38,793 nt of DNA, from positions 1-38,793 of the forward strand of contig JAGWKM010000008.1 in the NCBI GenBank assembly GCA_028865305.1, read 5' to 3'. The DNA comes from Patescibacteria group bacterium. Lineage in GTDB: Bacteria > Patescibacteriota > Minisyncoccia > UBA6257 > 2-01-FULL-56-20. The position numbers and the translations under genes are program-made. Under the pieces are notes generated by a model. The model saw nothing but the letters and a program-made list of their open reading frames with translations, was not told where the DNA came from and ran no database searches. Below, in pieces: positions 3,460 to 38,793 of the stretch; the first letter of the stretch is position 1, and each line of letters begins with the position of its first letter.

Positions 3460-4062
3460 TTATGGTAATTGGTAATACGCCTGCAATACCAAATTGTAGG
3501 CGAAATAATCAACGGAGGCCGACTTTCCTCCCGTGGATCCCGTGAACGGCTGGATTGCGACGTTCTCGATGTCGAAAAGCCGGATGTTGGTTTCGAGGTC
3601 CGCAATGAATTGCTTGAAATTCTCATAGCTTCCTGTTGCAACGAGTTTAAACGAGATCGTGCCTACCGGCTGAAGGAGCGCCGTCGAAGAACTGTTTCCG
3701 ATATTTGAGGATTTCTGCAAGGTTGGCGTGGAAACCGCGACCGACGAAAGACTGATATTATCCTGACTCGCAATGCCCTCGATCTGCGCCAGGGCTCCGG
3801 CCACATCTTCCCCCACGGGCAGCGCGGCTCCAAGGCCCTGCGCATTTTGGCTTTGCTCGTTATAAGAAGCAAGTATGCTTTGCGCCTGCTTTACGAGCGC
3901 AGACATACTGGTAAAGAGCCCTTGGTTCGCGATCTCCTCGCCGCGCAGGGATTCAACCTGGCTGTATGCCGGCTGTACGAATTCAAAAAAAACAACAAAA
4001 GCGACCACGAGGAACACCAGGGCGACCAACATGCTGACAAGCCGTTTGGAAGATTGCTTCAT
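3460..4062 (-). CDS. pilO: PilO-like pilus alignment protein
   Basis: The 200-residue protein has a short cytoplasmic N-terminus, a membrane segment at about 9-30 (LVSMLVALVFLVVAFVVFFE), a coiled-coil-like stretch at about 30-70 and a ferredoxin-like periplasmic region. This is the layout of PilO, which forms a heterodimer with PilN and links PilM to the outer parts of the pilus machine. Its start codon overlaps the pilN stop as ATGA, implying translational coupling. Assignment rests on topology and gene order rather than on strong residue motifs. Confidence 0.8.
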   Translation of the reverse strand: MKQSSKRLVSMLVALVFLVVAFVVFFEFVQPAYSQVESLRGEEIANQGLFTSMSALVKQAQSILASYNEQSQNAQGLGAALPVGEDVAGALAQIEGIASQDNISLSSVAVSTPTLQKSSNIGNSSSTALLQPVGTISFKLVATGSYENFKQFIADLETNIRLFDIENVAIQPFTGSTGGKSASVDYFAYNLVLQAYYQLP

Positions 4063-4616
4063 GGGTGTTGCGCCGAAAATATGGCCGGATTCATGAGTAA
4101 AGACAGGTTAAACTGCGGAATACCGCCCGCAACCGGCATAATGACATTTGAAAGGCTCACGGACTTCACCTCCGGATCCGACTGGAAAATCGCCATTTGT
4201 TGGTTCAAGTCGGCCGTGGTTTTAGCCGTTCCGTTGAGCGTCACCTGATTTCCGGAAGCGAAACTGAAACCCGTATAGGAAACATTGGCTTCGGTGCGGC
4301 TCTCGAGCCAGCTGAGAAAATTCGCAAAGGCAGTATGCTTGTTGACGAGATTCTTCAGGTTGGACAGTTCCGAATAATAGGCAAGTATCTTTTGCTGGTC
4401 GGCTGATGAAATCGATTGGTTCAGCTGGTTGATCTGATTTTGCGTTCCCGAAATCTGCGCGTTCAAAATAGGCGTGTAGACCGCCGCGAGGCCGAGGTAA
4501 AGCGCGATCACGATCACCAAAAGCCCGCCAGAATAAAACAAGATGCCTCCGGACCATCCGGGGGTTTTCACCGGTTCGCGGGCTAATTTTTCAACGACTT
4601 GAGTTGGAAGCGGCAT
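4059..4616 (-). CDS. pilN: PilN-like pilus assembly protein
   Basis: Membrane protein with a short cytoplasmic N-terminus that would bind PilM, a hydrophobic segment at about residues 22-46, and a coiled coil (NQINQLNQSISSADQQ) followed by a globular domain. The order pilM-pilN-pilO supports the call. I use the ATG at 4616 (MPLPTQVV). The longer frame from 4637 would add seven residues encoded by the heptad-repeat spacer and is a less natural start, though it cannot be excluded. The stop overlaps the pilO start. Confidence 0.8.
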   Translation of the reverse strand: MPLPTQVVEKLAREPVKTPGWSGGILFYSGGLLVIVIALYLGLAAVYTPILNAQISGTQNQINQLNQSISSADQQKILAYYSELSNLKNLVNKHTAFANFLSWLESRTEANVSYTGFSFASGNQVTLNGTAKTTADLNQQMAIFQSDPEVKSVSLSNVIMPVAGGIPQFNLSLLMNPAIFSAQHP

Positions 4617-4697
4617 GCGATTTGAGACAGGGAACAAGAGACAGGGAACAGAGAATTAACGCTATTCTTTCCCTGTTCCTTGTCTCATGTTCCTTGT
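4617..4697. repeat. Heptad-repeat inverted spacer between pilM and pilN
   Basis: One arm contains units GGAACAA, GAGACAG and GGAACAG; the other contains the complementary CCCTGTTCCTTGTCTC word. The arms flank a short AT-rich centre (GAATTAACGCTATTC). The same GGAACAG unit is found inside rpoBC at about 30058-30093. An upstream in-frame ATG for pilN lies inside this array. Confidence 0.8.
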
Positions 4698-4700
4698 TTC

Positions 4701-5786
4701 TTACATAAAATTCCTCATTCCTAACCCCAGCGCGACGCTCATCAAGGGAGCTAATTCCGGCACGAGCGGCTGGATCTCGCCCGGATATTCGAATTTCACG
4801 AATGGTGCGGCTTTGACCACCGGAACGCCGAACTCGCGCTCGAAATATTTTTCGACGCCCAAGAGATTTGCTCCGCCGCCGGCAAGCATGACCCGCTCAG
4901 TTTTCTTGGCAAGCGGAAACTGCTGCCCGTAAGCAAACTGGGCCTTCTTCACCTCATTTATTATAGCATCCACGAAAGGCATCATGATTGTGGACAACTC
5001 GTAACTTGGCCCGGTGCCGACAATCCCCCGTTCTTTTTTCAATTCTTCCGCCCGGAGCGGGTTCAGTCCCAGGCTTGAAGCGAGCGCCTGGGTGAGCGAT
5101 GCTCCGCCGAAGTCACTCTGTGTATTCCATACCAATCCGCCCCCCTCGAAAAAAACGATGTTCGTGGACCGGCTTCCGATATCAACTAGGATGGTAGGCG
5201 TCGGATCGCCGCCAAAAAGCCGGGCCAAGCTCAGGCTTTCGGTCTCAAGCGCGCTCAAACGGAGTCCGGCGGCGGCGAACATTTTGTTATATTTGTTGAT
5301 CTGCTCGTTCGGCACCGAAGTCAGGAAAATTTTCTGGTGGATAAACCCCTGGTCGTCCTGGAATTCCCCTACCTTCATCCAATCGAGCGACACCTCGGAA
5401 AGAGGCAGCGGCACGTATTGCTGCGCCTGAAACCGGAGCGCCTGCTCGACTTCCTGCGGCGCCATTTGCGGAAAATCAAGCACCGTGGTGAATACGCTGA
5501 ACGGAGGCAGCGACGCAATGGCATTGACTGCCGGGGTTCCCATGATCCGCACAAGCGCCCGCAAAAGTTCGATCACTTCCGACTCAAAGATCTTCAAGCT
5601 GCTCGTCTGGAGCGCCTGGTTCGCCCGCGCAAGATACCCGCTCGATTCCAAAAGGCCGTAATTCGAAACCAGCGGCTTCCCGGAGCCGTTCCTCACTTCC
5701 GCCATCTTGATGGAGGTCGTGCCGATATCGACGCCAAGGATCGCGCCGGAGAGGGACCTTTCAAAAAGATTAAAAGGATTTTGCAT
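4701..5786 (-). CDS. pilM: PilM, actin-like pilus assembly ATPase
   Basis: Cytoplasmic actin/FtsA-fold protein that binds the N-terminus of PilN and anchors the pilus motor. The 361-residue protein shows phosphate-binding motifs of the fold: LGVDIGTTSIKMAEV at about 17-31 and ILVDIGSRSTNIVFF near 194-208, with an adenosine-region LAGGGANLLG near 302-311. Length and gene position, first in the pil operon, match PilM. A TTGACT hexamer lies about 40 bases upstream but the -10 is unclear, so the promoter is not annotated. Confidence 0.93.
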   Translation of the reverse strand: MQNPFNLFERSLSGAILGVDIGTTSIKMAEVRNGSGKPLVSNYGLLESSGYLARANQALQTSSLKIFESEVIELLRALVRIMGTPAVNAIASLPPFSVFTTVLDFPQMAPQEVEQALRFQAQQYVPLPLSEVSLDWMKVGEFQDDQGFIHQKIFLTSVPNEQINKYNKMFAAAGLRLSALETESLSLARLFGGDPTPTILVDIGSRSTNIVFFEGGGLVWNTQSDFGGASLTQALASSLGLNPLRAEELKKERGIVGTGPSYELSTIMMPFVDAIINEVKKAQFAYGQQFPLAKKTERVMLAGGGANLLGVEKYFEREFGVPVVKAAPFVKFEYPGEIQPLVPELAPLMSVALGLGMRNFM

Positions 5787-7430: not shown

Positions 7431-7501
7431 GCGGGTATCGTATAGCGGCATTATGTCACCTTGCCATGGTGAAGATACGGGTTCGACTCCCGTTACCCGC
7501 T
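7431..7501 (+). tRNA. tRNA-Gly (anticodon GCC)
   Basis: Acceptor GCGGGTA pairs with TACCCGC, anticodon stem TCACC/GGTGA encloses loop TTGCCAT, and the T arm is ACGGG-TTCGACT-CCCGT. The discriminator is T and CCA is not encoded. The 3' part of this tRNA is repeated twice just downstream, once inverted (7556-7572) and once direct with one change (about 7663-7686). Confidence 0.92.
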
Positions 7502-7510
7502 CATGGAGAA

Positions 7511-7537
7511 CAAAAATTCCCGATCCGGGAATTTTTG
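7511..7537 (+). terminator. Perfect hairpin after tRNA-Gly
   Basis: Twelve-base-pair stem CAAAAATTCCCG / CGGGAATTTTTG with an ATC loop, ten bases after the tRNA-Gly gene. The run of T in and after the 3' arm makes it a likely transcription terminator for the tRNA. Confidence 0.75.
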
Positions 7538-7553
7538 TTTACCTTGAACGAAA

Positions 7554-7688
7554 TCGGGTAACGGGAGTCGAATCGCAGCACCCCGTGTAGGAAGGTCTGG
7601 GGAACCGTGGGCCTGTCTGCCGGTAGGCAGGTTCCCCAGACCGGGGGTCGGGGTGCTGCGCTCGGGTTCCACTCCCGTTACCCGCTCG
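7554..7688 (+). ncRNA. tRNA-derived long hairpin locus A
   Basis: The region folds into one long hairpin. Perfect stems are 7556-7568 with 7671-7683 (13 bp), 7574-7584 with 7650-7660 (11 bp) and 7594-7606 with 7630-7642 (13 bp), closed by a palindromic tip. The outer strands are inverted copies of the 3' end of the adjacent tRNA-Gly; the right-hand copy has TTCCACT where the tRNA has TTCGACT in the T loop. A word GTGTAGGAAGG and a following TGGGGAACCG are matched by GTATAGGAAGG and TGGAAACCG in locus B (38471-38602, minus strand). A terminator follows. It may be a non-coding RNA, a tRNA relic or a small mobile element. Confidence 0.4.
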
Positions 7689-7695
7689 TAAAAAA

Positions 7696-7736
7696 ACAAA
7701 AACCTCCGATTAATTTCGGAGGTTTTTATTTTTTAT
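7696..7736. terminator. Bidirectional terminator
   Basis: Stem AACCTCCGA / TCGGAGGTT with A-rich sequence on the left and a T-run on the right. It ends locus A on the plus strand and lies just beyond the stop codon of the minus-strand gene at 7744-8505, so it can serve both. Confidence 0.85.
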
Positions 7737-17390: not shown

Positions 17391-17478
17391 CAGACCAAGT
17401 TCATCTCTTTGCCTCTGTTTTGGTTTCCGTTTAAAATAACTGAAGCTGTTTGGGCTCGACTCCCGGAGGGTTGGAAAT

Positions 17479-28208: not shown

Positions 28209-35012
<6,804 letters not shown>

Positions 35013-38418: not shown

Positions 38419-38437
38419 ATAGATCGCAGACAGGATG

Positions 38438-38462
38438 AAAAAACCGCTCTTCGCGGTTTTTT
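38438..38462. terminator. Bidirectional terminator after locus B
   Basis: Stem AAAAAACCGC/GCGGTTTTTT with a TCTTC loop. On the minus strand it follows locus B by 8 bases. Confidence 0.9.
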
Positions 38463-38470
38463 CTTTTCGT

Positions 38471-38602
38471 CGGGCCGCCGGGAATGGAACCCGGCGCGAT
38501 ACGTCGCGCCCTGAAACCCCTCGGTTTCCAGTGCCTTCCTATACGGAAGGGGCAATCTGCCCCTTCCGACCTATCCCCTCGTTCGATTCCCGGCGCCCCT
38601 CC
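38471..38602 (-). ncRNA. tRNA-derived hairpin locus B
   Basis: The ends pair (38472-38485 with 38586-38598, one bulge) and enclose three hairpins: 38493-38510 (7 bp with a TACG loop), 38511-38531 and 38544-38568 (11 bp). On the minus strand the 3' end reads as a T arm CCGGG-TTCCATT-CCCGG followed by GCGGCCC, while the 5' end is the inverted, unchanged TTCGATT version. The T-loop change (C for G) is the same as in locus A, and GTATAGGAAGG matches A's GTGTAGGAAGG. It lies between two strong hairpins. No normal tRNA can be folded from it. Confidence 0.4.
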
Positions 38603-38605
38603 TTC

Positions 38606-38641
38606 GAACAGAAAACAGCTCGAGAGAGCTGTTTTCTGTTC
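38606..38641. other. Perfect 16-bp hairpin beside locus B
   Basis: Arms GAACAGAAAACAGCTC and GAGCTGTTTTCTGTTC with a GAGA loop. It resembles the hairpin at 7511-7537 in its position next to a tRNA-derived locus. There is a TTTT in the arm but no T-run after it, so a terminator role is uncertain. Confidence 0.7.
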
Positions 38642-38793
38642 TCGGTCGGCCATATCGGGGGGACTGTCGAACCTGGGATGATATCATCAGCCAACTTATA
38701 ACGTATTCTACGGCCCCGCGTTGAGCAGGCCTTGCGCGGAGCACTTCTAACCCGGCCCGCCGGGACTCCTTTGCGATCTTCCATCTCCGTATT
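38642..38793. other. Right-end segment, no gene identified
   Basis: No convincing coding frame. It contains short self-complementary words (CCGCG ... CGCGG, GATGATATCATC) and, on the minus strand, CAGGTTCGACAG, which resembles a T-loop but lacks matching stems. It could be part of an RNA gene or another tRNA-derived repeat that continues past the window. Confidence 0.3.

Follow-up and report, generated by a model that had tools for sequence, protein, structure and literature searches.

A gene-less, folded element with arms copied from adjoining gene ends in Patescibacteria, and its possible movement as a mobile cassette

The window, that is the whole 38,793-nt stretch of DNA analysed here, is one complete contig of a 1.99-Mb assembly of 388 contigs (G000) from a Patescibacteria group bacterium, and it contains two loci, A and B, in each of which a folded core lies between an inverted copy (I) and a direct copy (D2) of the 3' part of a tRNA (Table 1). 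The components that the original prediction had placed on the minus strand of locus B, namely an inverted intact T-arm, the core GTATAGGAAGG, an AACCG word and a final T arm carrying TTCCATT, are all present in the sequence. The last of these is a direct copy of a tRNA end; it is not a folded tRNA T-arm and pairs instead with the inverted arm, forming a stem (P1) in which the T-loop change produces a single C-C mismatch. Locus A begins 53 nt past tRNA-Gly(GCC). The common plan assigned to the two loci holds for the parts, which are the same with a different tRNA end, but not for their order, as the core of A is circularly permuted relative to that of B: the internal loop is the same, J1 comes after P3, and P2 forms the outer stem. 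A GGGGUC-like strand thus precedes hairpin P2 in B and follows P3 in A. The sense strand of locus B folds at -81.2 kcal/mol (z = -6.3, with 0 of 200 shuffles as good), and the fold of locus A reaches z = -9.1. A covariance model, R1, was built from ten copies, nine with tRNA arms and one (L046) without; run over the window with filters off, it recovers locus A, which was not in the training set, at E = 2.7e-5, and locus B, which was, at 1.2e-18. The core word with one mismatch allowed is weak evidence on its own (2 matches against 0.28 expected). In Rfam (release 15), only four tRNAs reach the gathering score over the window, and no RNA family lies above it at five element loci searched with E up to 5; ARAGORN and the Rfam tRNA model call nothing at A or B, the copied part being the 3' part of the tRNA only. 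A hairpin at the H1 position is found in most copies of the element. Elsewhere in the window, a T-arm-like sequence, GGGCTCGACTCCCGG, lies at 17450-17475, about 60 nt past tRNA-Ser(TGA), and is possibly a remnant of an element, and the minus strand carries at 28209-35012 an ORF of 2267 aa to which no identity was assigned.

Table 1. Parts of loci A and B by position in the window, and insertion sites at protein genes by locus number
Feature	Position or locus	Strand	Description	Basis
Locus B, whole	38470-38597	minus	inverted tRNA-end copy (I), folded core, direct copy (D2)	
Locus B, H1	38606-38640	minus	long hairpin ahead of the element, in terminator-like position between gene and element	sequence
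Locus B, I	38581-38597	minus	GGCGCCGGGAATCGAAC, reverse complement of the tRNA-Pro(GGG) 3' part, T-loop intact	
Locus B, J1	38568-38580	minus	purine strand GAGGGGATAGGTC	aligned in 10 type-1 copies
Locus B, P2	38545-38567	minus	hairpin	fold and compensatory changes
Locus B, J2	38534-38544	minus	conserved unpaired GTATAGGAAGG	
Locus B, P3	38511-38531	minus	hairpin (GAAACC/GGTTTC)	compensatory changes
Locus B, AAACCG	38527-38522	minus	within hairpin P3	
Locus B, P4	38493-38510	minus	hairpin, sequence varies among copies	fold centroid
Locus B, D2	38470-38490	minus	GTTCCATTCCCGGCGGCCCGA, direct tRNA-Pro 3' end copy, T-loop TTCCATT, pairs with I	
Locus B, H2	38434-38461	minus	terminator-like hairpin after D2	terminator scan scores it on the plus strand
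tRNA-Gly(GCC)	7431-7502	plus	neighbour of locus A; its 3' part is D1	
Locus A, whole	7555-7687	plus	same parts as B, tRNA-Gly end, TTCCACT	
Locus A, H1	7509-7541	plus	terminator-like hairpin separating tRNA from element	
Locus A, I	7555-7572	plus	inverted arm	
Locus A, core	7575-7659	plus	permuted core, whole	sequence, fold, R1 match
Locus A, P2	7575-7584 and 7650-7659	plus	two strands	
Locus A, J2	7585-7595	plus	GTGTAGGAAGG	
Locus A, P3	7594-7642	plus		
Locus A, J1	7643-7649	plus	GGGGGTC	
Locus A, D2	7664-7687	plus	direct tRNA-Gly 3' end copy, one T-loop change (TTCCACT)	
Locus A, H2	7690-7735	plus	terminator-like hairpin	
Sigma factor gene	L056		site at 3' end	
Heavy-metal-binding (HMA) gene	L046, L059		site at gene start	
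hppA	L177 (region L203)		site at 3' end	
rplL	L258		site at 3' end	
rpsI	L265		site at 3' end	
lepA	L250		site at gene start	
Unidentified ORF	L053		site in 3' part	

Pattern and model searches of the source genome yielded at least 11 copies (A, B, L005-L007, L041-L044, L070 and L071), nine of which directly follow a same-strand tRNA gene (Gly, Gln, Thr, Pro, Arg, Leu, Glu, Asp and a further Leu) and have arms derived from that tRNA. L041 is an incomplete element about 340 nt from a tRNA. The tRNA whose 3' end has the form CCCGG...CGGCCC, for which a search had been recommended, is tRNA-Pro(GGG) at positions 114353-114423 of contig C379, and it possesses its own element (L007), near-identical to B through D2 and for about 20 nt further. 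Upstream of B, the last 190 bases to the contig end contain no intact or significant tRNA, and B is therefore regarded as an orphaned or displaced copy; the match of this stretch to tRNA-Pro is equalled by 32 of 500 shuffles and is thus without significance. The reading of B and others as displaced copies was not retained in general, some cases being explained by later islands or decayed tRNAs, and the early idea of a tmRNA start upstream of B found no support. The minus-strand region before B (38655-38793) resembles a decayed tRNA, for which ARAGORN at a low threshold calls a tRNA-Ala-like fold. The assembly, at 1.99 Mb with 8% contamination, stands beside order relatives of 0.3-1.4 Mb; the bin may therefore mix organisms, which would affect the true number of copies per cell.

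Across the 128 elements aligned to R1, a same-strand tRNA gene lies within 200 nt upstream in 109, mostly at a distance of 40-65 nt, and these tRNAs represent 42 anticodons and all 20 amino acids. A similar preference is seen in a phylum-wide sample, where 22 of the 25 loci examined follow a tRNA. Three elements are located at tmRNA ends (L112, L164 and L182, the first and last by tail resemblance), and others adjoin protein genes (Table 1), whose names were read from short translated ends without a family search. The words at the target sites differ: GTTCR in tRNAs, GTGGGC in hppA, CAATGC in the HMA gene and GCGAGC in the sigma factor gene. Tandem or partial second units occur at L040, L042, L081, L132, L150 and L182. 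The suggestion that a defined element or class of RNA takes on the ends of various tRNAs is supported by these data, and it is extended beyond the original prediction in three respects: elements are found at the ends of protein genes, the arms track the adjoining gene, and the end of that gene can be foreign.

The arms were compared with their tRNAs in 108 copies, L161 being left out of the 109 tRNA-linked rows; D1 denotes the gene end that precedes the element. Positions 54-58 of the tRNA are matched exactly by I in 95 copies and by D2 in 37, and positions 53-60 by I in 79 and by D2 in only 13, so that the T-loop change first seen as common to A and B proves to be general. Over positions 61-70, I agrees with its own tRNA at 669 sites, against a mean of 419 and a maximum of 460 with permuted partners (0 of 1000 permutations reach the observed value), and the arms are thus specific to their neighbour. 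At the 285 sites within positions 53-64 where D1 and D2 differ, I equals D1 at 246, D2 at 28 and neither at 11; foldback copying of D2 into I was rejected on this count. D2 is a good match to the tRNA from the T-stem through the 3' end, and I is imperfect beyond position 63 in many copies. At L125, L129 and L147, the gene end and its terminator or flank are duplicated near-unchanged almost as far as I, but the T-loop of D2 is already altered. For this reason, the T-loop change is most readily understood as the edge of the element itself, with a junction near tRNA position 60/61.

Of the 243 genomes of the order that were searched with R1, 107 contain the family, as do 21 of the 379 genomes in the phylum-wide sample, 18 of them outside the order; it is thus present across Patescibacteria. 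Copy numbers per genome are lower bounds, and since the arms of R1 are mostly T-loop-derived, sites at protein genes are under-counted; the 80 loci numbered L104-L183 come from among the highest-ranking matches and are not a random choice. A strict core pattern is far more restrictive, with matches in 2 of 244 order genomes and, when one genome per GTDB species was searched, in only two Parcubacteria genomes, together with two armless matches (L047 and L049, in Acidobacteria and Collimonas) in which the core word alone is present and which we attribute to chance. The core words do occur in other genomes, and their absence, which would have spoken for a chance resemblance of two hairpins, was not observed. 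Pattern scans of viral contigs gave 0 matches, and blastn found no relative of B in phages or plasmids. Four loci of genome G244 (L062, L065, L067 and L069) share 29 nt with the model but were rejected as members, since they look like another repeat; they are four copies of a short repeat that has GGAAGGTATCGGAAACCGCAGGTTTCTGA in common with the model and follows a different plan.

At hppA, the 31 residues and stop encoded by D1 are encoded again by D2, with synonymous differences at 23 of 32 codons (the codon after the stop excluded) and 0 nonsynonymous differences. The GC3 of the gene body (645 codons) is 0.69 and that of D2 is 0.63, compared with 0.26 for D1, a value below that of every 27-codon window of the body. 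This contrast in codons and GC3 indicates that a foreign end has been supplied to the gene and that the native end has been displaced behind the element. D1 and D2 also differ at rplL (four synonymous and 0 nonsynonymous differences in nine codons), lepA (three and one in 15 codons) and the HMA gene (three and one in 12 codons). At the sigma factor gene, there is no difference between D1 and D2 over the 83 nt up to the stop, which fits a plain duplication equally well. The length of the unit, measured from the start of D1 to the start of D2, has a median of 175 nt in the tRNA cases (quartiles 167-183, n = 108) and is 187-203 nt in four protein-gene cases.

The fold is maintained by compensatory change. 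In an alignment of 102 copies comprising 29 pairs, 92.0% of the cells are paired, against 77.3% when shuffled and at most 64% when slid, and cells changed on both sides number 478, against 152 in shuffles; two-sided compensatory change affects 6 of 8 pairs of P2 and 8 of 9 pairs of P3. For P1, between I and D2, 85.9% of the cells are paired. The alignment was fitted to R1 and leans towards the structure, and the P1 counts are influenced by the derivation of the arms from the target, which does not apply to those of P2 and P3. Within P2 and P3, G-T pairs outnumber A-C pairs (26 against 8, p = 0.003), so the sense strand is favoured as the folded strand. That tRNA pseudogene fragments or ordinary terminators should produce this likeness by chance is scarcely credible, even though hairpins and fragments of T arms are frequent in the vicinity of tRNA genes: the E-values, the covariation relative to shuffles and slides, the permutation test and the occurrence in 107 of 243 genomes all stand against it, and cross-genome conservation already refutes it. 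A fold kept by selection, many copies per genome and a location on the same strand at a narrow distance past tRNAs, mostly 40-65 nt, could also be expected of a host RNA tied to tRNA genes by a role in processing, regulation or as a decoy, for which mobility would be incidental. This explanation seems very doubtful, as the carrier tRNAs differ between genomes, the ends of protein genes are used too, a hairpin usually separates tRNA from element, no promoter-like site precedes I in locus B, and import is seen at hppA.

We propose instead that A and B both represent a mobile cassette, about 175-200 bp long and without genes, that is inserted by site-specific recombination; to this reading we assign a probability of roughly one half. 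A rather unlikely alternative is RNA-guided insertion, in which I, as the 5' arm of an RNA, would pair with the target, a nick in the T-loop and a second nick 60-80 nt downstream would be made, and copying as in target-primed reverse transcription would duplicate 50-85 bp of the target. The complementarity of I to both the top strand of the target and D2 is in keeping with such a process, as are the near-unchanged duplications of gene end and terminator at L125, L129 and L147, the identity of D1 and D2 over 83 nt in the sigma factor gene and the excess of G-T over A-C on the sense strand. However, a local duplication cannot produce the foreign D1 tail of hppA, with its 23 of 32 synonymously different codons. 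Moreover, reverse transcriptase genes (PF00078) show no association with the elements: they occur in 52 of the 107 element-bearing genomes and in 54 of the 136 others (p = 0.19), and there is no reverse transcriptase match in G001 and G023, which carry at least 12 and at least four elements, respectively. Reverse transcriptase was rejected as a partner because of this lack of association.

The cassette could also be questioned from the side of the large serine recombinases, the elements then being minimal attL+attR derivatives of islands that these enzymes mobilise and the inverted arm a dyad of the att site. In 7 of 15 examined regions with a large serine recombinase gene (L200, L269, L271, L272, L273, L274 and L277), that gene is on the reverse strand and its 3' end either coincides with that of a tRNA or tmRNA or is no more than about 60 nt away, which suggests that serine integrases specific for tRNA ends are frequent in this order. 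At L200, a tmRNA and a recombinase are followed after 8.3 kb by H, I, core and D2; at L197, an ORF of 569 aa for such a recombinase (3923-5632) runs through I and the core and stops at the start of D2; and inverted repeats are described in the attR of SCC/ECC in the accessible part of the source (PMC6222049). We nevertheless consider this derivation quite unlikely. There is no co-occurrence with large serine recombinase genes (PF07508), which are found in 56 of 107 element-bearing genomes and in 68 of the 136 that lack elements (Fisher p = 0.80), L197 and L200 being exceptions by position only; none of the 30 best recombinase loci has an element within flanks of about 1.5 kb; and at L271, a decayed tRNA tail lies before H1, so that the island looks as though it had been inserted into a tRNA end that already bore the element. 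Large serine recombinases, suggested as partners by L197 and L200, are weakened as candidates by the same three observations. Tyrosine recombinases (PF00589) are present in 216 of 243 genomes, mostly as one copy, with the integron type not separated from Xer, and such near-universal occurrence is uninformative as to a partner. Genome G152, which is 98% complete in four contigs and carries at least seven elements, has no PF00589 match and is absent from the PF07508 and PF00078 match lists. A tyrosine recombinase gene is situated about 58 nt from an element after tRNA-Leu at G129:C1:200383-201074 (L152, L275), the sole such neighbour noticed.

Site-specific recombination of a whole cassette, our preferred reading, remains an inference; no circle has been seen and no recombinase identified. 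The anatomy of the unit, by contrast, is established: it is composed of a host gene end (D1), a short spacer that is usually a terminator (H), I and the core, where I is an inverted target copy of 12-22 nt and the conserved folded core, of about 90 nt, arranges P2, P3 and P4 around two purine-rich strands. We hypothesise that the whole unit is mobile, perhaps in the form of a small circle, and that it enters at a target motif of 11-15 nt, either the T-loop of a tRNA or a motif near a gene end; insertion would be tolerated because the incoming unit rebuilds the gene. The altered T-loop of D2 would then represent the element's own edge, with a crossover near the border of T-loop and T-stem. In the free form, the core would be flanked by I and D1, which would account for the agreement of I with D1; as the two face each other across the core, the target would appear in double-stranded form on the folded single strand, in a manner comparable to integron attC sites. 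A unit of this composition would explain the imported ends, the near-constant length and the tandem second units. The likeness of T-loops among tRNAs could also help the core to step from one tRNA to another. In its broader form, which we advance with more reserve and hold to be somewhat short of an even chance, the hypothesis states that Patescibacteria host widespread and undescribed gene-less cassettes of about 175-200 bp, whose folded strand, either RNA or single-stranded DNA, carries a copy of the target, which enter the ends of tRNA, tmRNA and protein genes by means of an unknown recombinase or RNA-guided enzyme, which rebuild the gene with an imported end, and which can adopt the ends of new targets.

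If this is correct, nearly half of the searched genomes of the order would carry a protein-less mobile unit smaller than the usual transposons, which inserts at the ends of essential genes, leaves these genes unbroken and exchanges their end for a foreign one, and the 3' ends of genes such as hppA and rplL would be exchangeable between species. An unseen enzyme would be implied that recombines at short gene-end motifs by way of a folded strand mirroring the target, and the question of how one conserved core serves dozens of targets would become directly testable. The recurrent direct and inverted fragments of tRNA ends behind tRNA genes would also be accounted for.

No description of such an element was found in the open-access full text of PMC, a search that leaves most subscription papers and all preprints outside. 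We know of no described family with target-following arms on a gene-less structured unit, and the element seems to be a mobile element of a kind not described before. Like tRNA-targeting integrative elements of the T-loop sublocation, it rebuilds the gene end and leaves a direct repeat from the T-loop to the 3' end of the tRNA. Those elements carry an integrase and have one att specificity, whereas a single core here serves 42 anticodons and protein genes. The small size, the absence of genes, the multiple copies and the fold recall MITEs and REP elements, but the element lacks constant ends and fixed terminal inverted repeats common to its copies, the arms being those of the target gene. In SCC/ECC, as far as the accessible part of the source goes, inverted repeats are found in attR and in the circular att site (PMC6222049). 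The I-core-D2 plan meets an SCC-like criterion of an inverted repeat beside a direct repeat in the copies inspected, and the element resembles the SCCmec/ECC cassettes of the Ccr large serine recombinases in being inserted towards the 3' end of a conserved gene, in its direct repeats and in the inverted repeat in attR, again within what that source gives (PMC6222049). It differs from them in its length of about 175-200 bp, its lack of genes, the structured core of about 90 nt between inverted arms, the dozens of targets and the absence of co-occurrence with large serine recombinases. The ssrA islands of Dehalococcoides, with the serine recombinase DsiB, enter the middle of the tmRNA T-loop and show a constant base disagreement in the direct repeat, according to the portion of the paper available (PMC3146451), so that T-loop insertion, tandem displaced 3' ends and a fixed T-loop disagreement are held in common. 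Those islands are, in contrast, large and gene-bearing with their own recombinase, and no inverted arm with a core is described in that portion. Unlike integrons, the element has neither an integron integrase shown for it nor an attI, and its cargo is restricted to the end of the target gene, with arms that vary by target. Integron core boxes have the form GTTRRRY and RYYYAAC; GTTRRRY boxes are not required by the element and are absent at the hppA, sigma factor and HMA sites. The likeness to integron cassettes resides in the unit itself, which has at its end an imperfect inverted repeat that folds (P1, formed by I and D2) and can include tandem or partial second units. As in attC sites, whose structure, together with integron cassettes, is treated in a source accessible in part (PMC3053210), the arms pair across a variable hairpin with a mismatch in the stem, and it is the fold of the single strand that matters.
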